Shown here one piece after another: positions 16,298 through 32,774 of a stretch of DNA of 64,000 bases. Position numbers and translations under genes: made by a program. Every line of letters begins with the position of its first letter. The stretch's first letter is position 1. The notes beneath the pieces were generated by a model. That model did not search any database. It had not been told where the DNA came from and was given only the letters and a program-made list of their open reading frames with translations. Source of the stretch: a virus; the IMG/VR virus record IMGVR_UViG_3300025133_000042, positions 1 to 64,000 of that record. One strand, 5' to 3'.

Positions 16298-16298
16298 C

Positions 16299-17885: not shown

Positions 17886-17913
17886 ATCATAGGAACGGCA
17901 AAGAGAGGGTAAA
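17886..17913 (-). promoter_or_regulatory. Early-type promoter
   Basis: -35 TTTACC (17908-17913), 16-base spacer, -10 TATGAT (17886-17891), followed by GTGTACCC and an AGGAG ribosome-binding site before the 17853 start. Confidence 0.6.
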
Positions 17914-17925
17914 GGGTTTTTTTAA

Positions 17926-18129: not shown

Positions 18130-18197
18130 TTTGTCCTCTCACGTATGTAGTGCGTGAGCATAAAATTATGCACGTGTGTGCGAGCAAAAAATTCTAG

Positions 18198-18266
18198 CTA
18201 GTCGCCTGCGTCGTTCAGGTAGTCTATGAAGAACCAGAGCGCTAGCGCTGCCAATATCGCAGACAT
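18198..18266 (-). CDS. Possible 22-residue membrane peptide
   Basis: MSAILAALALWFFIDYLNDAGD is a single hydrophobic helix with an acidic end. It starts seven bases after the stop of the gene before it, but no good ribosome-binding site is seen, so it is uncertain. Confidence 0.3.
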   Translation of the reverse strand: MSAILAALALWFFIDYLNDAGD

Positions 18267-18273
18267 GGCGAGC

Positions 18274-18429
18274 TTAGCAGCCACACGCTTTGACGAATCG
18301 AACGATGTCAAAGCGTGGATTCTCGCCGCGCAGAGCATGAGCGAAGTCCATTGCGACTTGCTGCCGGGTGTCCTTGTTCTCGATGCCGCCAACGATGGCT
18401 GCAATCATTTGAAAGTGCTTGCGAGTCAT
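18274..18429 (-). CDS. Conserved small phage protein (NPRFD motif)
   Basis: 51 residues: MTRKHFQMIAAIV, then a Val/Ala helix, then ENPRFDIVRFVKACG. This N-P-R-F-D-x-x-R-F-x-x-A-C-G ending recurs in small proteins of many proteobacterial phages and plasmids, whose function is unknown to me. AGGAG precedes the ATG and an early-type promoter lies 30 bases upstream. Confidence 0.6.
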   Translation of the reverse strand: MTRKHFQMIAAIVGGIENKDTRQQVAMDFAHALRGENPRFDIVRFVKACGC

Positions 18430-18459
18430 GTCCGTTCTCCTGTTTCGGGGGACAACTAG

Positions 18460-18487
18460 ATGATAGGAACAGTTTTTAGGGAGTAAA
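18460..18487 (-). promoter_or_regulatory. Early-type promoter
   Basis: -35 TTTACT (18482-18487), 16-base spacer, -10 TATCAT (18460-18465), for the NPRFD-motif gene. The -35 lies inside the 3' end of the upstream gene. Confidence 0.55.
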
Positions 18488-18655
18488 GGAAATGCTTTGA
18501 GAATCAAGCTGGATAATCAGCGCAGAGAGCATTTTGCTAGCAACATCGAGGGACTCCACCATTTCCATCGATGAGTTTCGGTCAGAAAACAAGTGATTCT
18601 GGGCAAGTTTGTCAATGTTATCGCGGTGTTCGATAAGTTCTTCTAGGGTCATCAT
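18476..18655 (-). CDS. Small helical protein (59 residues)
   Basis: Start at the ATG-ATG pair (18655) because a perfect AGGAGG lies upstream. The product is helical (LEELIEHRDNIDKLAQNH) and unrecognised. Confidence 0.5.
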   Translation of the reverse strand: MMTLEELIEHRDNIDKLAQNHLFSDRNSSMEMVESLDVASKMLSALIIQLDSQSISFTP

Positions 18656-18690
18656 TTTTAGCTTCCTCCTACAGACAGCCAATTTCTACT

Positions 18691-18837
18691 TTATATCCGT
18701 GACGTTAAGAGATCAGCGGGCATATGGTAACGCCGACCGTTTCGCAGCACAGTCACCTGATTTGTGCCTTCCCACACTTCCAGCACAATAACGATTTCAG
18801 CCTCGTGCTTGATTCGTGCGATGTCGCCTGCTTTCAT
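18691..18837 (-). CDS. KxGDLV-family protein, short (48 residues)
   Basis: Reads MKAGDIARIKHEAEIVIV, VTVLRNGRRYHMP: the family plan of a conserved K-x-G-D start, a V-I-V strand and a basic strand. It begins at a TAATG overlap with the stop of the gene before it. Among the shortest members. Confidence 0.6.
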   Translation of the reverse strand: MKAGDIARIKHEAEIVIVLEVWEGTNQVTVLRNGRRYHMPADLLTSRI

Positions 18838-19094
18838 TAGAGCACCACAAGGTTGCGAGTGGCGCAGTCTTGCGTCCTGCTAGGGAAAGAAACAACCGGG
18901 TCAAGGCCCTGTGTGTCGATGACGAGACCAATCTCGAACATATGCGGCAGGTGCTTTCTCGCATAACGCTCTTGAGCGGCGATTCCGGCTGCGCTGACCT
19001 GCGTGCTAGGGACCGGGCGCTCGAATCGAACGAGGTCGCCTAGCTTAATTCGGTTTTTCCAAGGTCGGGCGGCGTGTGTCCAGGATTGGTACAT
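18837..19094 (-). CDS. KxGDLV-family protein with N-terminal extension
   Basis: 85 residues; the family core (IKLGDLVRFERP ... EIGLVIDTQG) starts at residue 16 after a Trp/Arg-rich leader. GGAG lies before the ATG, 30 bases downstream of an early-type promoter. The longer insertion between core strands is unlike its neighbours. Confidence 0.6.
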   Translation of the reverse strand: MYQSWTHAARPWKNRIKLGDLVRFERPVPSTQVSAAGIAAQERYARKHLPHMFEIGLVIDTQGLDPVVSFPSRTQDCATRNLVVL

Positions 19095-19125
19095 CGTGTG
19101 GGCTCCTTCTGCCAGGTACGTTTAA

Positions 19126-19153
19126 ACTATAGGGACGCTTTATCGTTAGTAAG
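19126..19153 (-). promoter_or_regulatory. Early-type promoter
   Basis: -35 CTTACT (19148-19153), 16-base spacer, -10 TATAGT (19126-19131), then TTAAACGTACC and AGGAG before the 19094 start. The same leader text recurs at several other genes. Confidence 0.6.
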
Positions 19154-19324
19154 TAGAAAAAGAAAACCGGCGCGATAAAGGTTGTCATTCCGGCAGGTTA
19201 AGTTGGGCTTAGACCAATGCACCTTGACCATGCCAGGGTCAGGGATGCCGATACAGGGTAGAAATTCTATAATGATACCAGGAACTTTGTCCAGGTGGTG
19301 GATCACCAAATCACCGACTTTCAT
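19127..19324 (-). CDS. KxGDLV-family protein
   Basis: 65 residues: MKVGDLVIHHLDKVPGIIIEF ... MVKVHWS, then a hydrophobic C-terminal strand. Coupled by ATGA to the gene before it. Its stop codon lies inside the -10 of the next promoter. Confidence 0.65.
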   Translation of the reverse strand: MKVGDLVIHHLDKVPGIIIEFLPCIGIPDPGMVKVHWSKPNLTCRNDNLYRAGFLFLLTNDKASL

Positions 19325-19530
19325 TTCACTTTTCTCAAGTCTTGGACCAGATAACGGCGCACTGTGCCGTTTAGCTTTGTCTTCGTCGTAAGCTGAACGT
19401 GGTACACAGGATATGCCTCGGGGTGACCCTCGGGGTGACCAGCTGGCTTTGCCATAACGATTAGGCCGATTGTGTTCTTTGGGACACCAATGGAAGCCCT
19501 CGTAATCCTTACCAAATCACCCGGCTGCAC
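19321..19530 (-). CDS. KxGDLV-family protein
   Basis: 69 residues: MQPGDLVRITRASIG, NTIGLIVMAK, YHVQLTT, with a Pro/His-rich insertion made by a short duplicated GHPE unit. GTG start, overlapping the upstream gene by 14 bases. Confidence 0.65.
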   Translation of the reverse strand: MQPGDLVRITRASIGVPKNTIGLIVMAKPAGHPEGHPEAYPVYHVQLTTKTKLNGTVRRYLVQDLRKVK

Positions 19531-19723
19531 GACTTAGCACCTCCAAGACGCCTCTTTCGGGCCTCGTAGTGGTATCGCCATGCCAGCGCACGATGCATCG
19601 GGTGCCTTCACACCGAATAACAACACCGGCTCGGCCGGTTTCGAGACCATGATAGCCGCGTTCAGCTTGTGCTAAGTCGTCGAGCATGACGAGATCTCCG
19701 ACCTTTGGCTTTTTGCTAGGCAT
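19517..19723 (-). CDS. KxGDLV-family protein
   Basis: Start taken at ATG 19723 (MPSKKPKVGDLVML) rather than further upstream, since the family core follows at once; 68 residues with RAGVVIRCEG and CIVRWHG strands. Its 3' end forms the start of the next gene through a 14-base overlap. Confidence 0.6.
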   Translation of the reverse strand: MPSKKPKVGDLVMLDDLAQAERGYHGLETGRAGVVIRCEGTRCIVRWHGDTTTRPERGVLEVLSRAAG

Positions 19724-19784
19724 TTCATGCCCTTGTGTGTGTGCATGTGAGGGAAAAATTTTGGCGCAGCGCTTCGCGCTGCTG

Positions 19785-20108
19785 CTAAAAGCCTCGAACC
19801 GCGCGAGCGGTAGCGTCACACCACGCCATGGCTCTCTCTTCGCCGCCGCCGTAGCAAAATTCTACAGGCTTGCCGATGACCTCCTCCCTCACATCGAACC
19901 GGGCAGCGATATAGTGGTCATTAACGCGCGCCACCGCAACTTGCGTGCCATCGGCTAGCCAAGCCTTGTGGATAATCGTTGCTGGCATATTGGCTGACGA
20001 TGGTCGACGCGGGCCGCGATATCCTCGCTTGTCACCGTTCGGTGCGGTGCGGTGGGACTTGTTGCTGACTTTCATATGACGCGAAAAGGTTCGATTCTTG
20101 GTCGCCAC
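19785..20108 (-). CDS. Hypothetical basic early protein
   Basis: GTG 20108 is chosen because AGGAGCCCAC, the leader shared with other genes of this block, stands right before it; 107 residues. The first 40 residues are very basic with Ser/Arg/Pro (RGYRGPRRPS); the rest is mixed, with GTQVAVARVNDHYIAARF. Possibly nucleic-acid binding. Confidence 0.5.
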   Translation of the reverse strand: MATKNRTFSRHMKVSNKSHRTAPNGDKRGYRGPRRPSSANMPATIIHKAWLADGTQVAVARVNDHYIAARFDVREEVIGKPVEFCYGGGEERAMAWCDATARAVRGF

Positions 20109-20136
20109 GTGGGCTCCTATTGCTTGAGACACCTAA

Positions 20137-20164
20137 AACATAGGCACCTAGGTTGAACAGTAAA
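20137..20164 (-). promoter_or_regulatory. Early-type promoter
   Basis: -35 TTTACT (20159-20164), 16-base spacer, -10 TATGTT (20137-20142), upstream of the 20108 start. An A+T-rich 7-bp hairpin at 20218-20236 lies between it and the preceding gene. Confidence 0.55.
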
Positions 20165-20270
20165 GCATTTTTTAAACCCACCCTAACCCGCTAACATTAC
20201 TACTTAAATTGAAGGAGGATAAGATATATTCTTATCAAGAAGTTAATGTAAGCACACTCGCAACTATCAC

Positions 20271-20504
20271 TTAATGAAGACGCTTGCGCCTCCATTTAGT
20301 GCTTTTATTCAATAAGAAGTGCTCGCACCTCCCCGAATCGATTGAATCGTAAATTGTTTTCTTCTTTTCTCTGAAAAGGTCGCCGGGGCCACCTGAATGG
20401 GCTGTGTAATATTGAACTGACTTGCCTGATAGCTTTGTTATCACGCCAGTCTTCACCCCATCGACGACAATCATGTCACCGACCTTTAGCGTCCACCTGC
20501 CCAT
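20271..20504 (-). CDS. KxGDLV-family protein
   Basis: 77 residues; the core LKVGDMIVVDGVKTGVITKLSG begins at residue 6 and is followed by a basic Lys/Arg tail. TGATG overlap with the upstream gene. Confidence 0.6.
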   Translation of the reverse strand: MGRWTLKVGDMIVVDGVKTGVITKLSGKSVQYYTAHSGGPGDLFREKKKTIYDSIDSGRCEHFLLNKSTKWRRKRLH

Positions 20505-20728
20505 CAGTCCTCGTTACAAGGCGGGTGCGACCAGTTCTCATATTGCCAATCGCTGATGATGCCACTCTTGCAAAGGCTATCCGTCCAATTGTTCCAAGCC
20601 TCGCAGCGCGCGCAGGTGTCGGGTCTGCCGTCTTGCTCATAAGTGCGCTGAACTATTGGCAAAATCAGGTTAGTGAACTCGTCAACAGCATCTTGCCAGA
20701 GCATCGGGTTGTCAATGTCGCGGGCCAT
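20504..20728 (-). CDS. Hypothetical Cys/Trp-containing protein
   Basis: 74 residues, helical start (WQDAVDEFTNLILPIVQ), then TCARCEAWNNW and a C-terminal Cys. The four cysteines could bind zinc, but the spacing is not a known motif. First gene after its own promoter. Confidence 0.5.
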   Translation of the reverse strand: MARDIDNPMLWQDAVDEFTNLILPIVQRTYEQDGRPDTCARCEAWNNWTDSLCKSGIISDWQYENWSHPPCNED

Positions 20729-20757
20729 GATGGGCCTCCTCTGTTTGGGACGTCTTA

Positions 20758-20785
20758 ACTATAGGCACGTATGAGCGTGAGTAAA
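20758..20785 (-). promoter_or_regulatory. Early-type promoter
   Basis: -35 TTTACT (20780-20785), 16-base spacer, -10 TATAGT (20758-20763), about 30 bases before the 20728 start. Confidence 0.6.
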
Positions 20786-20790
20786 AAATT

Positions 20791-21090
20791 TTAAAAGCTC
20801 CCGTTGTATTCCCAGCAAATATCATTGCCCCATCGACAATACTCCTCGAACCAATCATCAACATACCAAACGCAGCAAGTCGAGCCGTCGTCATACCAAT
20901 CGCACCACTCCGGTACATAATGATACGGTTCATCCCAGCACCCTCCAGCATAATAGTGCTCGATGGGCACATCCTGCGTCAGTGCGGTGGAGTGTGTGGT
21001 GCTAAAATCAAAACGTGGGGTCTTCGCCTCGAACGCGCAGGATGCCATGATCAGCGCTGCTAGTGTAAGAATCGTGACAATCTTTTTCAT
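20791..21090 (-). CDS. Secreted or lipid-anchored Cys/Trp-rich protein
   Basis: 99 residues with a signal peptide ending IMASC (possible lipobox, Cys18). The mature part is acidic and has seven further cysteines among many Trp/Tyr residues (CWDEPYHYVPEWCDWYDD, STCCVWYVDDW). Disulfides and an outside location are likely. It may act at the cell surface; no family is known. Confidence 0.6.
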   Translation of the reverse strand: MKKIVTILTLAALIMASCAFEAKTPRFDFSTTHSTALTQDVPIEHYYAGGCWDEPYHYVPEWCDWYDDGSTCCVWYVDDWFEEYCRWGNDICWEYNGSF

Positions 21091-21126
21091 GCTTGAATCG
21101 CAGGGACGGAGGCTAAGAAGTAAAAA

Positions 21127-22410
21127 TTATTTTTCATCGATTGCGATAACTCGCTCATTCGTCTGGAAGTAAGGCCGAGCGGCGTGTCGCTTGGTAGTCA
21201 TCCACATGCGCTGACATTTACTAGCTTTTGGCTTTGGAGCTTCCATATCTGTCAGGACAATGTGCCCGTCAAACTTATGAGCGTTGACATACTCAGTCGG
21301 GGCATTGAAGCACGTGCCGCCATAGCAGTAGCGTATTTTGGGATGGCTTTGGCCCTTTTTCCAAATAAAAACAGAATCTTTCGCGACCTGGGTGTCAAAC
21401 GGGATGACTGTAAACGTAGCGATATCAGCGAGCTTGTTCAGTTCCGCATAAAAAGCAGCCAGCATGCCGTCAGACACAGAGCCAGACTGGTCAATACTCA
21501 CTGCGATGTTCGCAGTCCGGTTAACTTTGCGACCGGGATGAATGTAGGGATAGCGACGATTCAGGCGTTTGGGTGTACTGCGCTTGTCGGCGCGTTGCGA
21601 CGTCTTGACGAAGTAGCGAAGCACCTTGCGCCAGTCGACCTTAGATGTCAGACGTTCAACAATTTCTTTGCGGCAAGAGGCGGAGACAGAGCCCCATCCT
21701 CGGCTAGAAGCCTCGTTAGCAGCGTCTCGGAGAGCCTCCTTAACACGCTCTTTCGCAATATCAACAGCTTGCTGTTGCTCAGGGGTCATCTCTCCCTGTC
21801 CCCACTCCGAGTGGTCGTCAAACTGACCACAATTATCAGGGTCAAAAGTGTTGGATGACCCTTGGCTCGAACCATCGTCGTCGCCTTCACCTGGCTGTCC
21901 GGCTTGCCCATCGGCGCCGGAATCGTCGTCTTCGTCAGCCTTCTTCTTCAGCATATCAAAGTAAACTTCTGCGGCGAGACCTCCCTCGAAGTCCTCGAAC
22001 ATCTTGCCACCTGGGATACAACAACTTTCAGGCAGCTTGTCAGCGCCGATATGCCAATTAATGGCAAGATCAGTAGCGATATTCCAGAGCTTGAATTCCT
22101 TCATCTGCTCGCTAGTAGGGTTCTTGGTTTGCATGACGCCTGCAAGGCTGTCTGGCAAGCGACCAGTGAGGTGCTCGTAAACAAGATGGCTGAATTCATG
22201 AATCAGCACGCCTTGGCGTTGCTGGTCGTTTAGCTCCTCGAAGAACTTGGCGTTGTAAGAAAGCTCAAGACGCCCATCGTCATTGATACGCACGCCAGCA
22301 GTCGGAATTGAATCATTCCGCTTCTTCTCAATCCGCCGAGAGAGCGCAGCATAAAAAGGCTCGCTCATCAGCAGACGGTAAACATGGTCATTGAGATTGA
22401 AGTCGGACAT
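21127..22410 (-). CDS. VWA-domain metallopeptidase-like protein (MoxR partner)
   Basis: 427 residues from ATG 22410, behind GGAGGACATCG. The N-terminal part has HEFSHLVYEH near residues 71-80 (HExxH plus a nearby His), as in VWA-like proteins with a putative metallopeptidase domain (DUF2201 type). A very acidic linker follows, and the C-terminal VWA-like domain has SIDQSGSVSDG as the metal site (DxSGS) and a later TD (LTDMEA). Such proteins are normally paired with a MoxR-type AAA+ ATPase, and one is encoded just upstream. Together they probably remodel or activate a target protein. Targets in phage are unknown. Confidence 0.75.
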   Translation of the reverse strand: MSDFNLNDHVYRLLMSEPFYAALSRRIEKKRNDSIPTAGVRINDDGRLELSYNAKFFEELNDQQRQGVLIHEFSHLVYEHLTGRLPDSLAGVMQTKNPTSEQMKEFKLWNIATDLAINWHIGADKLPESCCIPGGKMFEDFEGGLAAEVYFDMLKKKADEDDDSGADGQAGQPGEGDDDGSSQGSSNTFDPDNCGQFDDHSEWGQGEMTPEQQQAVDIAKERVKEALRDAANEASSRGWGSVSASCRKEIVERLTSKVDWRKVLRYFVKTSQRADKRSTPKRLNRRYPYIHPGRKVNRTANIAVSIDQSGSVSDGMLAAFYAELNKLADIATFTVIPFDTQVAKDSVFIWKKGQSHPKIRYCYGGTCFNAPTEYVNAHKFDGHIVLTDMEAPKPKASKCQRMWMTTKRHAARPYFQTNERVIAIDEK

Positions 22411-22442
22411 CGATGTCCTCCGTTCTTCCGGGGTACACATAA

Positions 22443-22470
22443 ACTATAAGTACCGTCGTCAAAAGGTAAA
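22443..22470 (-). promoter_or_regulatory. Early-type promoter
   Basis: -35 TTTACC (22465-22470), 16-base spacer, -10 TATAGT (22443-22448), then TTATGTGTACCCC and GGAGG before the VWA gene. So the VWA gene can be expressed separately from the ATPase gene. Confidence 0.6.
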
Positions 22471-22659
22471 GGGGAAAAAGCGGGGGGGAGTAAGGGGCGG
22501 ATTTTATTCACAGAGCCGCCGTGCTATCTTGTTTTTCTAGTTTCGCGACTGTCAACAAGCAAACCCAGTAGTCATAAACTATACAATCGCCCTGCTATAC
22601 GACTCTCACAATCAATACTCCTGCCCCTAAGCAGTATAAAACTCAACAATACTCAAACC

Positions 22660-23718
22660 TTACTCGGTCGCAGCACCGAGTACCTGAACCAACTTGTCAG
22701 CCACGCCAGTACCGTCGGCGCTGCGAGACTGATGGAACCCAGTAACATTCTTGATGTCTCCAGTGCCCAGAGCAGTCCAGAGCTTCATCGTAGCCTCAGA
22801 TGGCAGCGAGACAAAGTAGGTTGCCAGGTTAGCCAACTGATCAGCAGTCAGCACTTCCTTGAAGCACTCGCTAGACTCCATCTTCTCAATCAAAGCGCAG
22901 TGGTCAGTGATGGTGAATTCAGAGGTCTTTTCAACCTTGCCCTGGTCAAGAATCATCTCAGGGGTAACCTGTCGGTCATAATTCTGGAAGAAATCGTTGA
23001 AAGCTACTGCGGCCTCGAAGCCGACAAAGCCACCACAAAGGTGAAAAATGGCGGGAGTGTGCTCGATGAGCATGTCGGCCGAATCCAGGCAGTCATTCAG
23101 ACGCTTCCAGGAGCGCCGCGACGGGTAAACCTTGTTAGGCTCGAAATCTCCGCCATGCTCAAGGTGCGAGCGATTTTGGTTGATGAAGTCCCAGACAACA
23201 TCCGTAACATTTTCCTTGGCCCAGTTAAGCCAGTCCTCGGCGGTCGGCTCCACGTCGAACACAGTCCAGCGGTCAAGCTCGGCGGGATCCATCTCACCAA
23301 CCTGATACTGCGAGCCATGCTCACCACCGTTGACGGCAGCGACGACGACAGTATCCTCGTGCAAGAAGTTGCCAAAGATCTTGCGAGAATCAGTCAGTTC
23401 AAAAATGCCTTGACGGACTTCAGGAATAGCCCGGTCGACCTCATCGAGAAAGAGGAGCACCGGACGGGCGCAGGCATCTGCCAGCCAGTCAGGCGCACAG
23501 AAACTAGTCACGTCGCCATCGGTACGAGGCAGACCAACGAGGTCGCCCTCGGTCATCTGAGACGCTCTGCGCTCGACGACGGGGAGGCGCATGTCGCTGG
23601 CAATTTGATAGACAAGCTCGGACTTGCCAATGCCGTGACGACCACGGAGCATAAGAGGCTTGCGTACACGCAGAACGTGGGGAGCAACGGAAACAAATGT
23701 TTTGAAATCGAGAGCCAT
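22660..23718 (-). CDS. MoxR-family AAA+ ATPase
   Basis: 352 residues. Walker A is GRHGIGKS (26-33), Walker B VLLFLDEVD (87-95), sensor-1 region VVAAVNGGE, and an arginine in PAELDRW fits the AAA+ arginine finger. The length and single AAA+ module fit MoxR ATPases, which work with VWA proteins as ATP-driven chaperones or metal-insertion factors. The next gene (21127-22410) is the expected partner. The 220-base gap between the two holds a second promoter and no gene. Confidence 0.8.
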   Translation of the reverse strand: MALDFKTFVSVAPHVLRVRKPLMLRGRHGIGKSELVYQIASDMRLPVVERRASQMTEGDLVGLPRTDGDVTSFCAPDWLADACARPVLLFLDEVDRAIPEVRQGIFELTDSRKIFGNFLHEDTVVVAAVNGGEHGSQYQVGEMDPAELDRWTVFDVEPTAEDWLNWAKENVTDVVWDFINQNRSHLEHGGDFEPNKVYPSRRSWKRLNDCLDSADMLIEHTPAIFHLCGGFVGFEAAVAFNDFFQNYDRQVTPEMILDQGKVEKTSEFTITDHCALIEKMESSECFKEVLTADQLANLATYFVSLPSEATMKLWTALGTGDIKNVTGFHQSRSADGTGVADKLVQVLGAATE

Positions 23719-23760
23719 GGTGAAAACCTCTTAATGGCGGGGTGTTTGTATTACAAATAA

Positions 23761-23788
23761 ACTATAGGGACAGAGCCCCTATAGTAAA
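23761..23788 (-). promoter_or_regulatory. Early-type promoter
   Basis: -35 TTTACT (23783-23788), 16-base spacer, -10 TATAGT (23761-23766), about 42 bases before the MoxR start. Confidence 0.6.
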
Positions 23789-23799
23789 TAGTTTTCTTT

Positions 23800-23871
23800 T
23801 TAGGGAAGGACAGTAATACGAATAGCGAGAGCAGCGACAGTCATTAGACCATAAGCAAGATATAGAACCAT
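23800..23871 (-). CDS. 23-residue membrane peptide
   Basis: MVLYLAYGLMTVAALAIRITV is one hydrophobic helix. GGAG stands six bases before the ATG, and a separate promoter of the block type lies 61 bases upstream, which together support a real micro-gene. Role unknown. Confidence 0.45.
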   Translation of the reverse strand: MVLYLAYGLMTVAALAIRITVLP

Positions 23872-23931
23872 TTTTGTCTCCAAGGGAGCCAGAGTAAACA
23901 ACGAAGCCAAGACTGCCCTGGCTACGAACAA

Positions 23932-23959
23932 AGAATAAGAACCCTTTTAGGTGGGTAAA
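23932..23959 (-). promoter_or_regulatory. Early-type promoter for a micro-gene
   Basis: -35 TTTACC (23954-23959), 16-base spacer, -10 TATTCT (23932-23937). The only gene before the next promoter is the 23-residue peptide. Confidence 0.5.
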
Positions 23960-23967
23960 GACCTTTC

Positions 23968-24636
23968 TTAAATTTTCTTAGCGCGTTTGAGGTATCGCTC
24001 TTCTGTCTTGAAGGGTTTGGCGCCTCCAACTGGCAGCACAGTGTACTTTCTAGCGCCTTTGGTCGCGCTCAAGCTATTATCCGAAACATCAATGATTACA
24101 ACCATCTTGCCGCGATGGCGAGATGACTCGCCTGCAACGTTTTTTCCGTCGCGGATTTGAGCCATCGCGCCCGGTGCAAAGAGCGGAGGTGTCTCGGAAT
24201 TCGTCATGGCGCGTTGGACGTATTTGTTTTCCACCATCTTGCGGTAGAGCTTTTCAGAAGGAATGTAACTAGAATCATTAAGGATTCGATCAGACGCATC
24301 GCTAAAGTACGGCGGGTTCGCCTTGTAGTATCGCGCAGCGAACTCAGACTTTTGACGCTTGTCATCGTCAAAGCTCGCGCGCCATTCGCTAGCAGCCTTT
24401 ACGTTCTTCGGGTCGCTCTTTTTTTCAATTCGCTGAAAGATTTCATGCTGTTTGGAGGTGAGTCGACCCCACTTCTTAGCATTGTCTAGCAAAGAAGACA
24501 GGAAATTGCGTTCCCAGTCGGTCAGAGTAGTTACGCCGCGTGCTGCGACCCTCTCAATCCTTGAGATGAGATTCTTTGTCTCAGATGGATCAGTTGTCGC
24601 AGGTCGTCGAGAATATCGTCGTCGCGGGTAGCCCAT
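23968..24636 (-). CDS. Basic protein with C-terminal KxGDLV-like module
   Basis: 222 residues. The N-terminal 130 are basic and helical. The last 70 (FAPGAMAQIRDG ... RGKMVVIIDVSD ... KYTVLPVGG) resemble the strand plan of the small KxGDLV proteins. It may be a fusion of that module to an unknown domain. Own promoter and ribosome-binding site upstream. Confidence 0.5.
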   Translation of the reverse strand: MGYPRRRYSRRPATTDPSETKNLISRIERVAARGVTTLTDWERNFLSSLLDNAKKWGRLTSKQHEIFQRIEKKSDPKNVKAASEWRASFDDDKRQKSEFAARYYKANPPYFSDASDRILNDSSYIPSEKLYRKMVENKYVQRAMTNSETPPLFAPGAMAQIRDGKNVAGESSRHRGKMVVIIDVSDNSLSATKGARKYTVLPVGGAKPFKTEERYLKRAKKI

Positions 24637-24665
24637 GAGCCTCTCCGTGTCTTGGGTACATCTAA

Positions 24666-24693
24666 ACTATAGATACCAAGTTTCTTGAGTAAA
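24666..24693 (-). promoter_or_regulatory. Early-type promoter
   Basis: -35 TTTACT (24688-24693), 16-base spacer, -10 TATAGT (24666-24671), then GATGTACCC before the 24636 start. Confidence 0.6.
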
Positions 24694-25107
24694 CTAAAAA
24701 TATATCGAGCGTGAGACGCCAATACCATCGAAGGCGCAGCCTTCCTTGCGGATATCATTAGTGTCTTCGCCAATTCTCAAGAAAGAAAAGAATTCTTCCC
24801 ATGCGCGCTCGTAGGTTGTGCCGTCGCGGTGCTTTCCTGGCGGAGCTTCATCAAGACCATACTCAGACATATCATCACTAGCGAGAGCATCGATGAAATC
24901 GTTGATTGGGTCAATGTCTTCGTAGCCTTCGTACCACTTGATACTTGACCAATACACTAGCCAATCGCCAGAATTCTCATAGCCTGACTGGAAGGTGTCA
25001 GCGTTTTGACACATCTCCATGGACTTAGGATTCTTTGCGAGCATCGCCATAAAGGCAGGGGCAGCTTCGGGTGTAATAGCTAGCACAACTTCAGATCGAT
25101 AGCCCAT
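24694..25107 (-). CDS. Conserved phage protein (GYRSEV type)
   Basis: 137 residues from ATG 25107, which overlaps the upstream stop. The start MGYRSEVVLAITPEA matches a family of small phage proteins beginning M-G-Y-R-S-[ED]-V, known in many phages without an assigned function. Acidic and aromatic throughout. Confidence 0.6.
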   Translation of the reverse strand: MGYRSEVVLAITPEAAPAFMAMLAKNPKSMEMCQNADTFQSGYENSGDWLVYWSSIKWYEGYEDIDPINDFIDALASDDMSEYGLDEAPPGKHRDGTTYERAWEEFFSFLRIGEDTNDIRKEGCAFDGIGVSRSIYF

Positions 25108-25376
25108 TACTGACGAGCCTCCCACAAACGCCAGCCTGCTGTGCTAACTGACTGCTCCGTGGCGCCATCGATTTCTCGTCGCTTCGCGTGTGATGCGAAA
25201 ACTTCAGTGCCGTCTGGCATGCGAATGAGGTACTGTGAGCCTCTAATGTGCTCAAGCACGAGGGCGCCCTCGAAGCCTTTCTGTGTAATTACGGAGCCTT
25301 CGACGGCTCGACGTTCACGAGCGAATCTTGCTCGGTCTTCTGGCGAGAGTCCGTGACGGTTTTGTCGACGACCCAT
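25107..25376 (-). CDS. Basic protein with beta-rich core
   Basis: Start at ATG 25376 (MGRRQNRHGLSPED) with GGAGAG upstream; 89 residues. After a basic helix the text ALVLEHIRGSQYLIRMPDGTEVFA suggests an SH3/KOW-like barrel, so it may be a distant relative of the KxGDLV set. Coupled to the GYRSEV gene. Confidence 0.5.
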   Translation of the reverse strand: MGRRQNRHGLSPEDRARFARERRAVEGSVITQKGFEGALVLEHIRGSQYLIRMPDGTEVFASHAKRREIDGATEQSVSTAGWRLWEARQ

Positions 25377-25411
25377 TTTACTCTCCGTTGTACGGGTTGT
25401 TGTCTTCTTCA

Positions 25412-25440
25412 ACTATAGGGACATTATCATGTAAGGTAAA
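25412..25440 (-). promoter_or_regulatory. Early-type promoter
   Basis: -10 TATAGT (25412-25417) with TTTACC (25435-25440) 17 bases upstream, or TTACCT at 16 bases. Serves the 25376 start. Confidence 0.55.
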
Positions 25441-25449
25441 ATAATTTAT

Positions 25450-25629
25450 CTATCTACTTGAAATTAAAGTAGTATCCTCTGCTGACTGCCAGAACGTCAT
25501 ACCGTCGACATGACTCAAGTATTTGAAGCCTATCCAAATTTTGCTTGAGCCCAGCGAATCCGCATCAACAGCCATGACTATTCCAACCCGGCCACTGTTG
25601 TTATCCTCAATCAAATCACCGACTTGCAC
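25450..25629 (-). CDS. KxGDLV-family protein (59 residues)
   Basis: Begins with GTG at 25629 inside the 3' end of the gene before it (14-base overlap) and reads MQVGDLIEDNNSGRVGIVMAV. It is the last gene of the chained array. Core strands are present; the C-terminal half is less typical. Confidence 0.6.
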   Translation of the reverse strand: MQVGDLIEDNNSGRVGIVMAVDADSLGSSKIWIGFKYLSHVDGMTFWQSAEDTTLISSR

Positions 25630-25801
25630 TGATAAGCTCCAAGGCGTATCGGGCGCAGCTTCCCGGCTCGCGGTCTGGCATTGTCGACCACTTGACCCGG
25701 CATCGTCTGGCCTGAGCCTCTACCGAGATAATGATTCCAATACCATACATTTGCGGTGGTGCAACGGCTGGCCTCATTCGTACCAAGTCACCGACTTGCA
25801 T
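25616..25801 (-). CDS. KxGDLV-family protein
   Basis: 61 residues: MQVGDLVRMRPAVAP, GIGIIISVEAQARRCRVKWS, and an ending ELISASR produced by overlap with the next start. TAATG joins it to the small basic gene before it. Confidence 0.65.
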   Translation of the reverse strand: MQVGDLVRMRPAVAPPQMYGIGIIISVEAQARRCRVKWSTMPDREPGSCARYALELISASR

Positions 25802-25941
25802 TAGTCTCTCCAGCGAAGATGCTTCGCAACCTGACGTTTTGGCTTGCGCCTGCGACCCTTGCGGAAGTCATCGGCTCGCTTGTGATGGGCGCCAGCCTTG
25901 CCTGCATGCATCACTCGTGCGTCTATGCTTGCGTGTTTCAT
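25801..25941 (-). CDS. Small very basic protein (46 residues)
   Basis: ATG 25941 overlaps the upstream stop (ATGA). MKHASIDARVMHAGKAG is followed by an Arg/Lys/His-rich run; more than a third of residues are basic. Possibly RNA- or DNA-binding. Not a KxGDLV member although it sits in their chain. Confidence 0.5.
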   Translation of the reverse strand: MKHASIDARVMHAGKAGAHHKRADDFRKGRRRKPKRQVAKHLRWRD

Positions 25942-26135
25942 CTCCATCGCTCCAAATAAAGTGTGTTCGCCAGATAGGTGCTGCCCTCGGTATCCATGAC
26001 GCGAACAAAAGCCCGGTCGGTGGCGCCCGTGTCAACGAAGGACATAATCAAAGCCGGAACAATCTCGTTGTCGCGAGACATGGCCTTCACTAAAGCACCG
26101 GGCTTGATTTCATCTTGTCGAAGATATATGTTCAT
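25938..26135 (-). CDS. KxGDLV-family protein, leaderless
   Basis: 65 residues; IKPGALVKAMSRDNEIVPALIMSF is a variant core with G-A in place of G-D. The ATG is only six bases past the promoter -10, so the mRNA probably has no leader. Confidence 0.6.
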   Translation of the reverse strand: MNIYLRQDEIKPGALVKAMSRDNEIVPALIMSFVDTGATDRAFVRVMDTEGSTYLANTLYLERWR

Positions 26136-26749: not shown

Positions 26750-26928
26750 GGAGCCATAAACCTTTCCTTGTCTTCAGAAAAAGTATCGGTGGAGGCGTCA
26801 TCATTCTCTCTGTTGAGATTTGAGAGCAGGGCTTCAAGCACCTCAGCGCGCTCTTGCGCGGTATCCAGGCATTTAGAGCATTGCTCTTCCAGGGTTTGAG
26901 AAATAATGTCTTTCAAATTAGGATTCAT
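26746..26928 (-). CDS. Small acidic helical protein
   Basis: 60 residues, helical (LKDIISQTLEEQCSKCLD ...), no KxGDLV core. Sits between two family members with overlaps on both sides (4 and 11 bases). Function unknown. Confidence 0.5.
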   Translation of the reverse strand: MNPNLKDIISQTLEEQCSKCLDTAQERAEVLEALLSNLNRENDDASTDTFSEDKERFMAP

Positions 26929-27115
26929 TTAGAGCCTCCAGCCATCGTTCGCTGTTCCATGAATAGTCAGCGCAGCCACGGGGCGCGTCGAACCAGTATA
27001 CCCTGTAAGGACAGCCATTCGGGTTCGTAAGTTGTGGCCTGCTTACTTCTATTATAATCCCCAAGCTGTTGTGGTCAAGGGCATGATTGTTTTTTACCAA
27101 ATCACCGACTTTCAC
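26918..27115 (-). CDS. KxGDLV-family protein
   Basis: 65 residues: MKVGDLVKNNHALDHNSLGI, then YRVYWFD and a Trp-rich end. GTG start inside the upstream stop (GTGA). The last residues ALNES are encoded over the next gene's start region. Confidence 0.65.
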   Translation of the reverse strand: MKVGDLVKNNHALDHNSLGIIIEVSRPQLTNPNGCPYRVYWFDAPRGCADYSWNSERWLEALNES

Positions 27116-27348
27116 TTATCACCTGTACAGACTTTTGAGATTATTTTTACCAGACCTTCAGTCAGGGCATCTTCGCCTATGTCGCAGACGTAAGGAATAC
27201 TCGGCCACTTTATCTTCCATGAGGGCATCATGCCATCTGGGTATTCCGCTAATTCTCCAACTACGCCTACTTTGTAGCCTGGGCCGATAGCCACCACGAG
27301 ACCTATCTCGCCATCAGTATGGTCTTGAATTAAATCACCGACTTTCAC
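27112..27348 (-). CDS. KxGDLV-family protein
   Basis: 78 residues: MKVGDLIQDHTDGEIGLVVA, then a Gly-rich loop, WKIKWPS, and a longer C-terminal strand ending TGDK. 14-base overlap with the gene before it. Confidence 0.65.
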   Translation of the reverse strand: MKVGDLIQDHTDGEIGLVVAIGPGYKVGVVGELAEYPDGMMPSWKIKWPSIPYVCDIGEDALTEGLVKIISKVCTGDK

Positions 27349-27523
27349 TGAAAACCTTTAGTTCTAGTGCGTCGTACCACATACGACCGATTTCCTCAAA
27401 GTCGTCGAACCACTGTACCTCAAAGTAGACGGCGCCTTCGGCGCTCTCGTGGGAGTCCAGTACAATGCCTTTTCCTGGTGGATGTAGCCGATTGTTACGG
27501 ACAACCAAATCACCGACTTTCAC
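27335..27523 (-). CDS. KxGDLV-family protein
   Basis: Start is GTG 27523 (read MKVGDLVVRNNRL) inside the preceding gene's last codons; 62 residues with FEVQWFDDFEE and the overlap-made ending FSESR. Confidence 0.65.
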   Translation of the reverse strand: MKVGDLVVRNNRLHPPGKGIVLDSHESAEGAVYFEVQWFDDFEEIGRMWYDALELKVFSESR

Positions 27524-27701
27524 TGACAATCTCCAGATCTTCTTCTTCATACCACAGAAAGTCTTCAGGCCACTGGACGCATATGCTTAGCGCGGAGTGC
27601 CTCGACGACTCTATCATTATTACAATGCCGATGCCAGAGTCAATGTCCGACCCAAAAACTAGGCTTCCCTCTTTGCACCTTACCAAATCACCGATTTTCA
27701 C
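27510..27701 (-). CDS. KxGDLV-family protein
   Basis: 63 residues: MKIGDLVRCKEGSLVFGSD, GIGIVIMIESS, CVQWPEDF, ending EIVSESR. 14-base overlaps at both ends. Confidence 0.65.
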   Translation of the reverse strand: MKIGDLVRCKEGSLVFGSDIDSGIGIVIMIESSRHSALSICVQWPEDFLWYEEEDLEIVSESR

Positions 27702-27855
27702 TGAGTATTACCAACTGAGATTCCGGCCATTGTATTCGTTCGTCGCCACAAATAACTGTATACCAGCCACGCCAGGCCTCCGACGAAGAAACTATTAAGC
27801 CGAGCCTCTCGTCAGAAAACGAACCAATCAGCTTAACAATATCACCGACTTTCAT
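27688..27855 (-). CDS. KxGDLV-family protein (55 residues)
   Basis: Reads MKVGDIVKLIGSFSDERLGL, then WYTVICGDE and a short end ILSENR. It fills exactly the space between its neighbours with 14-base overlaps at both sides, which confirms it despite its length. Confidence 0.6.
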   Translation of the reverse strand: MKVGDIVKLIGSFSDERLGLIVSSSEAWRGWYTVICGDERIQWPESQLVILSENR

Positions 27856-28024
27856 TTAGCAACTCCAAAAGTTCATGCTCGATGGGGTAAAGCCCGCTAT
27901 GCTCAGGGCTACCAAACCAATGAATAATAGCCTGGTCTCCATACTTATCGCCGTCGATGTCCAAGATAATGCCGATATCTTTCGCGTGTGGATGTGTCCA
28001 CTTAACCAAATCACCGACTTTCAT
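27842..28024 (-). CDS. KxGDLV-family protein, leaderless
   Basis: 60 residues: MKVGDLVKWTHPHAKDIGII, IIHWFGSPEH, ending LLNESR. Its ATG is six bases after the -10 of a promoter that lies in the 3' end of the upstream gene, so part of the array can be transcribed from here without a leader. Confidence 0.65.
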   Translation of the reverse strand: MKVGDLVKWTHPHAKDIGIILDIDGDKYGDQAIIHWFGSPEHSGLYPIEHELLELLNESR

Positions 28025-28030
28025 GTCTTA

Positions 28031-28058
28031 ATCATAGGTACGGATTACGAGGAGTAAA
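28031..28058 (-). promoter_or_regulatory. Early-type promoter inside the array
   Basis: -35 TTTACT (28053-28058), 16-base spacer, -10 TATGAT (28031-28036), ATG at 28024. The -35 overlaps the 3' end of the gene at 28045-28251. Confidence 0.6.
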
Positions 28059-28251
28059 GAGTGTCGATTTGATTTTCGAGGACAGAGTGTCTGTACGGGT
28101 CATGGTTCGGACAATGGTTCCACTGAACGAAGTACCATGGTGTGTATTCTTTATCGGGCTGACCTTTGTCAATGCAGACGAGGAGACCAATACTCCCCGC
28201 GTCCCATATACGACCCTCTTCGAGGGCTATTACAATATCACCTGCTTTCAC
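28045..28251 (-). CDS. KxGDLV-family protein
   Basis: 68 residues: MKAGDIVIALEEGRIWDAGS, GLLVCIDKG, WYFVQWNHCPNH. It is the last gene of the upstream chain and ends in promoter sequence rather than in another start. Confidence 0.65.
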   Translation of the reverse strand: MKAGDIVIALEEGRIWDAGSIGLLVCIDKGQPDKEYTPWYFVQWNHCPNHDPYRHSVLENQIDTLYSS

Positions 28252-28447
28252 TAATTAACTCCAGTTCTTCAGGGTCGTGCCACAAAAAATCATCGTTCCA
28301 TTGAACGCGAAAACTCTTCCACGGTTCGGTCTCGCAGTCGCCGTCGATATAGGTGCCCTCGTCCATCATAGTAATGACGCCGGGGCCATAGTAAACACCT
28401 GATACCTGCCAGTTCTCTTTGAGCAGTGCAATATCACCGACTTTCAT
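28238..28447 (-). CDS. KxGDLV-family protein
   Basis: Start at ATG 28447 (MKVGDIALLKENWQ); 69 residues with VYYGPGVITMMDEG and FRVQWNDDFLWHDPEELEL. It is a close paralogue of the gene at 28612-28812, so these two are a recent duplication. Confidence 0.65.
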   Translation of the reverse strand: MKVGDIALLKENWQVSGVYYGPGVITMMDEGTYIDGDCETEPWKSFRVQWNDDFLWHDPEELELISESR

Positions 28448-28622
28448 TGTTACACTTTCCCAGTCGACGCATACGGCATCCACACCGATTGTCAATCCAC
28501 CGTTCGACTGTATTCCCAATGACTTCCATCACGGCCTCAAAATCTTCTTTGTTATCTAGGGAACGAGCATCGCACTTCTGTGCTAGCATATGTTCGATTT
28601 CTTTTACAAGATCATGCTTCAC
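28434..28622 (-). CDS. Small helical protein inside the array
   Basis: 62 residues from GTG 28622: MKHDLVKEIEHMLAQKCDA, helical, with a basic Cys-containing end. Not a KxGDLV core, yet it uses the same overlap device (11 bases upstream, 14 downstream). Confidence 0.5.
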   Translation of the reverse strand: MKHDLVKEIEHMLAQKCDARSLDNKEDFEAVMEVIGNTVERWIDNRCGCRMRRLGKCNNESR

Positions 28623-28812
28623 TGATTAACTCCAGTTCATGTGTTCCGTGAAAAGAAAAATCATCGATCCACTGTATTCTGTGAGAAACAAATCCCTCTT
28701 CGGGGTAGTCATCTTCGGGGTAGTCAGTTATAGATGTAATAACGCCAGGGCCATAGTAAACACCTTTTATCTGGTATTCCTCTTTGAGCAGAACGATATC
28801 ACCGACTTTCAC
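28612..28812 (-). CDS. KxGDLV-family protein
   Basis: 66 residues: MKVGDIVLLKEEYQIKGVYY, GPGVITSITD, HRIQWIDDFSFHG. Contains a short DYPE repeat (also a DNA repeat at 28701-28725). Close paralogue of the 28238-28447 product. Confidence 0.65.
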   Translation of the reverse strand: MKVGDIVLLKEEYQIKGVYYGPGVITSITDYPEDDYPEEGFVSHRIQWIDDFSFHGTHELELISEA

Positions 28813-28990
28813 TGACGACCTCTAAGTCATTGATATTAAATGTGTATTCAGTATCGAAAACTGCCTTAACAAAAGTAAAGTTGACCGCATCAGCCGGGTA
28901 TACCTGCGTGACTACGCCTATCGTGTCTTCGTATGCTCGACCCTTGCGGGTCTTCCGCATGGACAACCTTACCAAGTCACCGACTTTCAT
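28799..28990 (-). CDS. KxGDLV-family protein
   Basis: 63 residues: MKVGDLVRLSMRKTRKGRAY, TIGVVTQVYPADAVNFTFVKA, ending EVVSESR. 14-base overlaps at both ends. Confidence 0.65.
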   Translation of the reverse strand: MKVGDLVRLSMRKTRKGRAYEDTIGVVTQVYPADAVNFTFVKAVFDTEYTFNINDLEVVSESR

Positions 28991-29282
28991 TGACTTTCTC
29001 CAGAATTATCTTGTCGTAAAAACCGCCGGTGGTCTCGCGCTTGTCCATTGCGACGTTCTCCACCACTTCCATGCAAAGAGCATGTTCGAGACACAAAGCT
29101 CGCAACACTTCCCATATATCTGCTGCCTCTTCATAGCTAGGATTTTCAATAAATTCATTGAGTTCTTCATGCATCTTTTCGTACAAGCGAGCCCTGTATT
29201 CCTCGTCGTCTGCAATGTAATACTCGCATGTCCTGCCACTTTCCTCAATGATTCTGGGGATACCATCTCTAACCAGCTTCAT
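28977..29282 (-). CDS. MazG-like nucleotide pyrophosphohydrolase
   Basis: Start at ATG 29282, overlapping the upstream stop (ATGA); 101 residues. KLVRDGIPRIIEESG is followed by EKMHEELNEF and EEAADIWEVL, the EExxE ... ExxD metal-binding pattern of all-alpha NTP pyrophosphatases (COG4997/MazG superfamily). It probably hydrolyses non-canonical or signalling nucleotides. It is embedded in the KxGDLV array and ends with the same overlap-made NESR. Confidence 0.65.
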   Translation of the reverse strand: MKLVRDGIPRIIEESGRTCEYYIADDEEYRARLYEKMHEELNEFIENPSYEEAADIWEVLRALCLEHALCMEVVENVAMDKRETTGGFYDKIILEKVNESR

Positions 29283-29518
29283 TGTCTTGGCCTCTCGAAG
29301 CACGACATTTTCTGCCTCTTCGATACCTGCCCGCAGCGGGGACCGGACAGAGCAACAACGTCGATGGCGGACGCATAAACACCAGCATGTTCACCCATGC
29401 CGCATCGCTCCATCTCGTAGTCTTGCCCCTCCATAAAGCGTGCGGTGTACTCCCCACGAATAACATGATACAGAATTTTGTGATTGCCCTTGAGGCAAAC
29501 CAAATCACCGACTTTCAC
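29279..29518 (-). CDS. KxGDLV-family protein
   Basis: 79 residues from GTG 29518: MKVGDLVCLKGNHKILYHVI, then a longer middle and a basic end (CGQVSKRQKMSCFERPRQ) without the usual last strand. Confidence 0.6.
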   Translation of the reverse strand: MKVGDLVCLKGNHKILYHVIRGEYTARFMEGQDYEMERCGMGEHAGVYASAIDVVALSGPRCGQVSKRQKMSCFERPRQ

Positions 29519-29705
29519 TTATGACCTCAACCCATCCGTTGCGTACCGCAGTCAATATCAATCTCTGTGGGCTCTCATACAAGCTCCACTTGACCATAAC
29601 ATATTCTCCGTCTGGCCCTTCAACAGTACCATAGGAACGAACCTCGGACAAGACAAGGCCTAAATCACCGTCTCCTTTATCTTTAATCAAATCACCGACT
29701 TTCAC
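29505..29705 (-). CDS. KxGDLV-family protein
   Basis: 66 residues: MKVGDLIKDKGDGDLGLVLS, YVMVKWSLYESPQ, ending WVEVISESR. 14-base overlaps at both ends. Confidence 0.65.
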   Translation of the reverse strand: MKVGDLIKDKGDGDLGLVLSEVRSYGTVEGPDGEYVMVKWSLYESPQRLILTAVRNGWVEVISESR

Positions 29706-29880
29706 TAAAGTGCCCCTTCAAAATTTCTTCCATGGCGTCATGGATTCGATTTTCAAGCTCAATGGCGCGGGGTTTGTCCAAGTCTAAATCGAATGGAATA
29801 TCTACTCGACACTCAACAATATTTGGCCCGATTGCAATATGATATTGCGCGCCTGGAGTTTGGCATTTACGTTCCTTCAC
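29692..29880 (-). CDS. Small hypothetical protein inside the array
   Basis: 62 residues from GTG 29880: MKERKCQTPGAQYHIAIGPN, then a helix (AIELENRIHDAMEEIL). No KxGDLV core, but the overlaps with neighbours are the same. Confidence 0.5.
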   Translation of the reverse strand: MKERKCQTPGAQYHIAIGPNIVECRVDIPFDLDLDKPRAIELENRIHDAMEEILKGHFSESR

Positions 29881-30055
29881 TTACAACCTCGATGTATTCC
29901 TCCGACATAGGGCCTCCCATGTCAAAGCTAGCTTTGCATACGGGAGCAAGATTCCAATAGGCCGGGCCACCGATGTGGCCGCGTTCGGCCTCTGTGGTAA
30001 TAATATAGTAACCAATCTTTGCTGGTAAAACTTGAACTAAATCACCAACTTTCAT
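29867..30055 (-). CDS. KxGDLV-family protein
   Basis: 62 residues: MKVGDLVQVLPAKIGYYIIT, a Gly-rich loop, and YIEVVSEGT. ATGA overlap with the gene before it. Confidence 0.65.
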   Translation of the reverse strand: MKVGDLVQVLPAKIGYYIITTEAERGHIGGPAYWNLAPVCKASFDMGGPMSEEYIEVVSEGT

Positions 30056-30264
30056 GCTCTGCTCATAATATGAAACATATCGTCCTCAGTGCAGTAATCT
30101 TGCGATTTCCAAGGATCCGTTAAAATCTTACCTGAGTTCCAAGCGACTTCAACCATCAGCTCGTCGTCATTGTAATGACTTATATAAGTAGAAAGCACTA
30201 TTCCTATGTCGCCATCTGAGCAAGCAAGCACGTCTCCTACTTTTGGAGCATTTTCGCTTTTCAT
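30052..30264 (-). CDS. KxGDLV-family protein
   Basis: 70 residues; the core APKVGDVLACSDGDIGIVLS starts at residue 6, then LMVEVAWNSG. ATGA overlaps with both neighbours. Confidence 0.6.
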   Translation of the reverse strand: MKSENAPKVGDVLACSDGDIGIVLSTYISHYNDDELMVEVAWNSGKILTDPWKSQDYCTEDDMFHIMSRA

Positions 30265-30500
30265 TCTTGACCAAGCCTACTTGCGCTTATAATTTCCAAC
30301 TCGTGCGGCAGGTAGAGGCGCGCGAGTCTTTTGTGAGCCCACTGCACGCAAACAAGGGCTACATCACGGCTAGGTAGCATTACTGCGGTAACAATGCCGC
30401 CCCAATGGCAGCCAGCGCGATGTGCCACCAAATCACCAATTTCAGGGTGCCTTGCTGACTGTCTTAATTTCTGAGTAGCGGACACTTCTCTCGCTCCCAT
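30261..30500 (-). CDS. KxGDLV-family protein, start uncertain
   Basis: The core PEIGDLVAHRAGCHWGGIVT is clear, with ALVCVQWAHKRLARL after it. The ATG at 30500 (79 residues) has no good ribosome-binding site and would overlap the upstream gene by 59 bases; a nearer non-ATG start is possible. Confidence 0.5.
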   Translation of the reverse strand: MGAREVSATQKLRQSARHPEIGDLVAHRAGCHWGGIVTAVMLPSRDVALVCVQWAHKRLARLYLPHELEIISASRLGQE

Positions 30501-30618
30501 CTGATAAGCTGAGTAGCCTGTATTCTTGTTCGCCGGATCCGCGTCTCGGAAGGGCCTTGAGAACAATATAGTAACGAGTTGTCTCGTATAAAACAGAAAC
30601 TAAATCGCCTACCTTCAT
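30442..30618 (-). CDS. KxGDLV-family protein
   Basis: 58 residues from ATG 30618: MKVGDLVSVLYETTRYYIVL, EYRLLSLSDGS, with a basic last strand. Four bases after the upstream stop. Confidence 0.6.
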   Translation of the reverse strand: MKVGDLVSVLYETTRYYIVLKALPRRGSGEQEYRLLSLSDGSERSVRYSEIKTVSKAP

Positions 30619-30622: not shown

Positions 30623-30808
30623 CTAGGGAGCATACTCCTCGTCTGCCATGGGTGTGATAGTGACAACATTCTCCCACGTCATTGAGCCTTCGGGCCACAG
30701 AACCTTAAAGTCGACTGCGACGAGTGAGTCTGTGTGTGCTTCGCTTACGCGGGTGATGACTCCCATTGAGCCAGTATCAATGCACTTTACCAAATCGCCT
30801 GTAATCAT
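30623..30808 (-). CDS. KxGDLV-family protein, first of the array
   Basis: 61 residues: MITGDLVKCIDTGSMGVITR, VDFKVLWPEG, with an acidic end. GAGGAGG precedes the ATG and a promoter lies 30 bases upstream, so this gene opens the array. Confidence 0.65.
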   Translation of the reverse strand: MITGDLVKCIDTGSMGVITRVSEAHTDSLVAVDFKVLWPEGSMTWENVVTITPMADEEYAP

Positions 30809-32663: not shown

Positions 32664-32702
32664 GAAATGTGAACTGGCGAGGCCCAGCCTACGCCCCCAG
32701 AG

Positions 32703-32774
32703 CCCGCATGACAGGATTCGAACCTGCAACCTCTAGCCTAAAGCTAGCGCTCGATCCTAGTGAGCTACACGCGA
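32703..32774 (-). tRNA. tRNA-like gene, possible UUA anticodon or degenerate
   Basis: Acceptor TCGCGTG/CATGCGG, a 4-bp D stem, T arm GCAGG-TTCGAAT-CCTGT and a D loop with GG are all present, but CCA is not encoded. The anticodon arm is abnormal: either a 5-bp stem closes a five-base loop TTTAG, or opening one pair gives a seven-base loop CTTTAGG with anticodon UUA, which would read the UAA stop codon. It is a broken tRNA or a suppressor-like tRNA; sequence alone cannot decide. Confidence 0.5.

Follow-up and report, generated by a model that had tools for sequence, protein, structure and literature searches.

A repeated gene joint translated in two frames within arrays of predicted SH3-like barrel genes of uncultured viruses

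The gene array and its overlaps

The window, i.e., the whole 64,000-nt stretch of DNA that was analysed (positions 1 to 64,000 of IMG/VR record IMGVR_UViG_3300025133_000042), belongs to a virus record of 104,857 bases that carries large-phage genes, including those for a DNA polymerase (PHROG 405), a UvsX-like recombinase, a DnaB-like helicase, a ribonucleotide reductase and a phage-encoded GroEL (positions 42561-44126, minus strand; PHROG 5725, E 6e-136). The G+C content was 0.50-0.54 at positions 16001-26000 and 0.37-0.49 elsewhere in the window. A tRNA call made by ARAGORN (32702-32774, minus strand), whose TTA anticodon would read the stop codon UAA, may correspond to a suppressor tRNA or to a false call. 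From about 30.8 to 25.4 kb, the minus strand is densely packed with small genes, forming an array whose members mostly start with M-K-V-G-D. A profile of this family (67 sequences) gave 16 matches with E ≤ 0.01 across the whole record, 12 of them inside the array. The features discussed below, all on the minus strand, are as follows.

30623-30808, minus: family gene, MITGDLVKC...
30442-30618, minus: family gene, MKVGDLVSV...
30261-30440, minus: family gene with its start motif altered to CTGAAATTGGTGAT, one base short; outside the 25-junction count
30052-30264, minus: family gene, MKSENAPKVGDV...
29867-30055, minus: family gene, tail SEGT
29692-29880, minus: non-family gene, MKERKCQ..., joint at its 3' end, tail SESR; a relative lies at L133:5872
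29505-29705, minus: family gene, tail SESR
29279-29518, minus: gene with the family start MKVGDLVCL, tail RPRQ
28977-29282, minus: non-family gene, which we take to be MazG-like, no Pfam match; joint at its 3' end, tail NESR
28799-28990, minus: family gene, tail SESR
28612-28812, minus: family gene, tail SEA, 11-nt overlap with the next gene
28434-28622, minus: non-family gene, MKHDLVKE..., joint at its 3' end, tail NESR
28238-28447, minus: family gene, tail SESR made by the variant joint GTGAAAGCAGGTGA
28045-28251, minus: family gene, MKAGDIV..., no downstream overlap
27842-28024, minus: family gene, tail NESR
27688-27855, minus: family gene, tail SENR, upper gene of the pair described by the sequence-only reading
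27688-27701, minus: 14-nt overlap, GTGAAAATCGGTGA
27510-27701, minus: family gene, tail SESR, lower gene of that pair
27510-27523, minus: 14-nt overlap, GTGAAAGTCGGTGA
27510-27536, minus: full joint, i.e., the Shine-Dalgarno (SD) stretch CTGGAGATTGTCA within the upstream gene plus the overlap
27335-27523, minus: family gene, tail SESR, used for structure prediction (SH3-like barrel, pLDDT 90)
27112-27348, minus: family gene, 4-nt downstream overlap
26918-27115, minus: family gene, tail NES, 11-nt downstream overlap
25616-25801, minus: family gene, MQVGDLV..., tail SASR
25450-25629, minus: family gene, MQVGDLIED..., end of the array
22660-23718, minus: AAA+ ATPase, conserved flanking gene, presumably of the MoxR type; anchor for fetching relatives

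An earlier reading made from the sequence alone had proposed that 14-nt overlaps occur at most junctions, the start of each gene encoding the end of the previous one. Indeed, genes 27510-27701 and 27688-27855 overlap as claimed. Among the 25 neighbour pairs formed by 26 genes, from 30808 down to 25450, however, the 14-nt overlap was present in 13, i.e., about half in this window rather than most. The other pairs overlapped by 11 nt in the same phase (three pairs), by 4 nt (four pairs) or not at all (five pairs). One of these five gaps houses the family gene 30261-30440, which was excluded from the census for want of an ordinary start codon and is possibly decaying.

The family start motif was used in 11 of the 13 overlaps of 14 nt, the tails being SESR or NESR in nine cases, SENR in one and SASR in one; different sequences were found in the remaining two overlaps (29867 to 29692, tail SEGT; 26317 to 26169, tail DEAT). 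With up to three mismatches, the 15-mer AGTGAAAGTCGGTGA was found 19 times in the window versus 1.73 times expected (100 shuffles, largest value 7), and its copies in the array were all on the minus strand. One exact copy (27102-27116) lies in another phase, with a 4-nt overlap and the tail GDK instead of SESR. The non-family genes starting at 28434, 28977 and 29692 were said to have been captured with the same junctions; this held for their 3' ends but not for their 5' ends, where overlaps of 11, 4 and 14 nt, respectively, have other sequences.

The family consists of real proteins under purifying selection, since pN/pS was 0.19 over 47 pairs. The product of gene 27335-27523 was predicted to be a five-stranded SH3-like barrel, its nearest fold being the KOW region of Spt5 (Z 9.3, rmsd 1.9, 58 aligned), and the best Foldseek match was to a PWWP domain (E 0.006), with PWWP and Tudor domains near. 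The model is thus consistent, at the level of fold only, with the small five-stranded barrels of the KOW/PWWP/Tudor kind. Pfam returned no family for the modelled member and, together with PHROGs, no useful family for single members; one of the 67 aligned members matched Pfam PWWP (E 0.0004). These proteins would be binding modules, perhaps directed at host or phage targets in host takeover or counter-defence.

Architecture of the joint in related viral loci

Using the flanking ATPase gene (22660-23718) as an anchor, we retrieved 80 related viral loci. The anchor matched six Vibrio phages at approximately 30% identity, and the annotation of one such distant match also gives the MoxR type. A family profile, built from 14 window proteins and iterated on the loci, recovered 779 family genes in the window and the 80 loci, with a maximum of 34 in locus L188. 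Adjacent family genes overlapped by 14 nt in 312 out of 429 pairs and by 4 nt in 47. After removal of near-identical loci, these values were 251 and 44 out of 356 pairs, 282 of which were in the same phase. The 14-nt joint is therefore a general feature beyond the window. The joint census and the codon counts exclude L007-L126, which were fetched by the 15-mer, and L207-L209, as these loci had been selected through the pattern itself or through a different gene.

The array belongs to a group of uncultured bacterial viruses that are mostly marine. In a viral scan, at least 120 stretches matched a strict 26-nt pattern of the joint, and a strict-pattern scan of prokaryote genomes gave three MAG contigs with family genes, which are possibly viral sequence. 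No match was obtained by tblastn of two family proteins against 50,697 named-phage records, and a short DNA query against named phages gave chance-level matches only (best E 0.9); among these, a match to Det7 was rejected, as it lay inside a gene, on the other strand and not at a start. Overall, the named-phage searches with the family proteins, the short DNA query and the anchor ATPase yielded no isolate carrying the array, and a search of open-licence papers yielded no description of the array or the joint.

The profile of 275 distinct 14-nt joints comprised TGGAGGT at positions -12 to -6, mostly ATC-A, and then RTG AAA GTC GGT GAT; in the upstream frame it reads L-E-V-I-S/N-E-S-R-stop. For this profile and for the codon counts, we discarded starts lying over 6 nt away from the start of the profile, starts close to a contig end and duplicate contexts; the remaining joint sequences are related by descent, and the codon counts are not independent. 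The Glu codon of the upstream gene was GAG in 208 of the 217 joints with a recognisable motif and in 51 of 54 preceding same-phase non-family genes, versus 22 out of 48 family genes without an overlapping start and an interior baseline of 751 out of 1634. Selection for the SD therefore acts on a synonymous position in the upstream gene. Moreover, GTC accounted for 167 of the 220 Val codons at joints versus 19% of interior Val codons, and CGG, the upstream reading of GTC, for 8% of interior Arg codons. As both codons are scarce inside the genes, the joint nucleotides seem to be kept beyond the need of either protein, which would fit a joint kept alike as nucleic acid. Stops in both of the other frames were carried by 351 out of 619 family starts.

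The joint may thus be viewed as one multi-purpose element of approximately 27 nt. The upstream gene would read it as the last β-strand of the SH3-like barrel and a short tail (LEV-IS-ESR-stop), the mRNA would present it as a strong, well-spaced SD (TGGAGGT), and the downstream gene would read it as a start and first codons (M-K-V-G-D). Because the SD sits in the L-E-V codons, a well-spaced start must be in the +2 phase, and the overlap is 14 nt long because the first +2 stop inside MKVGD is GGTGA. Where the first +2 stop falls is set by the gene that follows, giving an overlap of 14 nt with MKVGD and of 11 or 14 nt with the other starts seen in the window.

The shared SESR tails had been explained as a by-product of the conserved start. 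This holds for E-S-R: non-homologous genes (GIY-YIG, ClpP, MazG-like) also carry the tail, which therefore follows from the start of the next gene. It does not hold for the Ser, which is also kept in family genes without an overlap. Indeed, among 46 non-overlapped family genes with a recognisable motif, the residue after the LEVI strand was Ser in 21, encoded by several codons, and Asn in 7, and the residues past Ser varied (SSQDH, SPALL, SLPE, others). In the model, the last strand spans residues 55-59, with Ser59 closing the barrel and E-S-R lying beyond it. SESR as a domain was ruled out, since non-overlapped family genes do not keep ESR. That the tail is a functional C-terminal signal, such as a degradation or binding tag preserved by the overlap, is very improbable: the retained Ser and the avoidance at joints of Val GTT, which makes Trp at the upstream end (3 out of 220, versus 20 out of 134), would agree with it, but ESR is lost without the overlap and unrelated captured genes bear the tail solely through the next start.

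Captured non-family genes encode GIY-YIG (Pfam E 1.5e-16), ClpP (1.6e-85), and SWIM and C2H2 zinc-finger proteins; a Pfam match was obtained for 4 of the 10 scanned. At L150:5141-5761, a ClpP protease gene adjoins a family gene, with a DEDR tail made by the family start that follows.

The start codon itself also differed according to the upstream gene. GTG was used at 167 of the 275 family-to-family joints versus 39 of the 279 other family starts, with a start choice weighted against GTG and TTG and hence conservative for this result, and the excess was seen individually in 28 of the 30 loci with sufficient data. At joints whose upstream gene had not been recognised as a family member, GTG represented 14 of 55 (GTG plus ATG) starts; up to 21 of the 56 joints of this class may involve weak family members, and GTG was found in 9 of the 35 joints that were strictly non-family upstream. 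Most simply, GTG would be favoured at the next start by the Ser (AGT) of the protein encoded upstream.

Mosaic breakpoints and gene exchange

The window and L007-L209 served for the analysis of indels, close gene pairs and breakpoints. Counted upstream of locus position 10,000 (the array side of the anchor), loci of 11 kb or more held 0 to 23 family genes, the low counts being partly due to truncation where the anchor is nearer a contig end. Flanking genes stayed alignable while array content differed among relatives. Array order and copy number identical across relatives would have spoken against the sequence-only reading; array size and content in fact differed strongly. Its view of the genes as cassettes bounded by the joint gained support from indels, neighbour changes and the ends of homology.

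Two loci that are about 95.6% alike, L131 and L132, differed by several whole-gene indels. Of three breakpoints between them, two fell in the joint (148 and 181 extra nt); the third (190 nt) was at a different SD-like sequence. Recombinant sequences were seen for L076 (the same contig as L131) and L132, L144 and L146, and L157 and L156. Among 21 indel events involving at least one family start, 12 were bounded at each end by a family start no more than 25 nt away and nine were not. The 190-nt indel between L076 and L132, outside the family joint, breaks at the SD-like sequence AGGAGAG, a hint that short homologies may be provided by ribosome-binding sites more generally.

In 45 of 108 equal-length gene pairs that were at least 85% alike, the next genes were unrelated, and the 14-nt start was present on both sides in 32 of these 45. 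In 47 pairs, both members were followed by a family gene with a 14-nt overlap; in the 27 of these whose next genes were unrelated, identity fell from approximately 91% before the joint to approximately 29% past it. A matching drop was seen on the upstream side in 24 out of 51 pairs. Overall, abrupt ends of homology lay inside the joint in both sequences in 129 of 183 cases (52 out of 79 on the 3' side and 77 out of 104 on the 5' side), where a random point would fall in the joint zone of one sequence in approximately 21% of cases and conserved joint bases lengthen alignments by some nucleotides. At the sequence level, mosaic breakpoints thus occur at the joint, which supports the shuffling of cassettes there. 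This clustering is not proof of homology-driven recombination, because mid-gene breaks may be purged, and it could partly reflect selection against broken genes.

We consider it probable that the joint is a multi-purpose element of approximately 27 nt whose recombination shuffles SH3-barrel cassettes, mainly between related phages. With a joint on both flanks of most cassettes, recombination there would swap, add or remove whole genes with both frames intact, and the array would resemble a shuffled deck of accessory SH3-barrel genes. Related phages would be the main partners in this exchange, which probably takes place in co-infected cells and by ordinary phage recombination; the window encodes a UvsX-like recombinase, which may be the one used. 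We infer that homology in the joint drives this exchange. An account based on selection only, in which illegitimate recombination joins DNA at random, recombinants persist only if their genes are intact and their start functions, and the joint is conserved as a good ribosome-binding site, appears somewhat unlikely. The SD and the early codons are clearly selected, and most phage mosaic borders are described, in the available part of one study, as having no identifiable shared boundary sequence (PMC3029335), as this account would have it. Random joins should nevertheless yield gaps and other overlaps, whereas the exact 14-nt start was kept in both partners at the 32 neighbour changes mentioned above; GTC and CGG are conserved past the need of the proteins or the SD, and recombinant joints fall within identical joint stretches.

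The sequence-only reading had attributed the gain and loss of genes to unequal crossing-over, which, acting within one genome, would lengthen arrays by tandem duplication and shorten them by deletion. A few near-duplicates within a locus agree with this (e.g., L155:14614-14829 and L155:14976-15191, 98.6% identical), but a paralogue with at least 60% identity in the same locus was found for 14 out of 774 genes, only 1 of the 108 close pairs (at least 85% alike) lay within one locus, and the 774 genes formed 576 clusters at 60% identity. As near-duplicates within a locus are rare, exchange between genomes better fits the gains; unequal crossing-over is quite improbable as the main route, although loss within one genome is possible and some losses may be explained in this way. 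The overlap had also been thought to couple translation. A joint that exists for coupling by termination and re-initiation would account for the start/stop overlap at most junctions, but is unlikely, and tight coupling was not supported, given the length of the overlap and its strong embedded SD: according to the portion of the source available, coupling declines as overlaps exceed 4 nt (PMC12548453), and an SD match of 5 nt or more was present in 192 of 275 joints of 14 nt versus 18 of 40 joints of 4 nt. The 14-nt starts are thus richer in SD, as expected if they initiate on their own.

A bolder extension of the preferred reading, which we put forward tentatively, is that of an integron-like cassette array without a dedicated site-specific enzyme, the translated joint of about 27 nt supplying the homology for exchange. 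If so, any gene placed between two joints would be terminated, expressed and movable, and a fast-changing repertoire of SH3 barrels could be kept, for instance against host defences.

Significance and relation to known systems

Phage genomes are mosaics whose seams seldom reveal a shared sequence. Here, the seam can be seen; it recurs many times in each locus and is conserved across a large group of uncultured viruses, so that short homology and pure selection become testable as sources of gene-by-gene mosaics. One stretch of DNA would moreover act simultaneously as a β-strand, a ribosome-binding site, a start and a stop, and gene finders that limit overlaps or favour ATG may mis-call such arrays.

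In lambdoid phages, short boundary sequences have been proposed to act as recombination linkers between genes. Like those sequences, the joint is a short sequence conserved at many gene borders, where mosaic blocks change and the homology of relatives changes. It differs in being coding in two frames, in containing an SD, a start and a stop, and in its many repeats per array. Such linkers are not found at most mosaic borders, according to the available part of the study that cites the proposal (PMC3029335). Exchange between temperate phages has been tested at homologies whose longest perfect stretches were 116, 41 and 11 bp, with recombinant frequencies given, in the available text, for the 116- and 41-bp stretches (PMC3945230).

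The joint also departs from the most common gene overlaps. In 4-nt NTGA overlaps, a stop and a start on co-directional genes share two bases; the joint is likewise a co-directional stop/start overlap, but is 14 nt long, in another phase and with a strong embedded SD, and 14-nt overlaps far outnumber 4-nt ones in the family pairs counted above. Across prokaryotes, 4-nt overlaps are the commonest, and those of 1 and 8 nt are enriched too, as far as the accessible part of a review goes (PMC12548453).

PeSL elements consist of an early promoter plus a stem-loop and lie between genes. Like the joint, they are repeated elements linked to shuffling; the joint, in contrast, is translated in two frames and, judged on overlap alone, is not intergenic, as genes overlap at 20 of the 25 window junctions. 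PeSL cassettes are said to mediate gene shuffling among T4-like phages in the available portion of their description (PMC4503421). In Cluster K mycobacteriophages, SAS is a repeated 13-bp element with an SD core that precedes the starts of different genes, 3-7 bp upstream and mostly with ATG starts (80 out of 93), according to the part of the report available (PMC3203893). The joint, with TGGAGGT, ATC-A and RTG, does not follow the SAS consensus given there, and the same part of the report describes neither a paralogous array nor an SD encoded within a β-strand for Cluster K. What is new here, compared with these systems, is a translated joint in a paralogous array.
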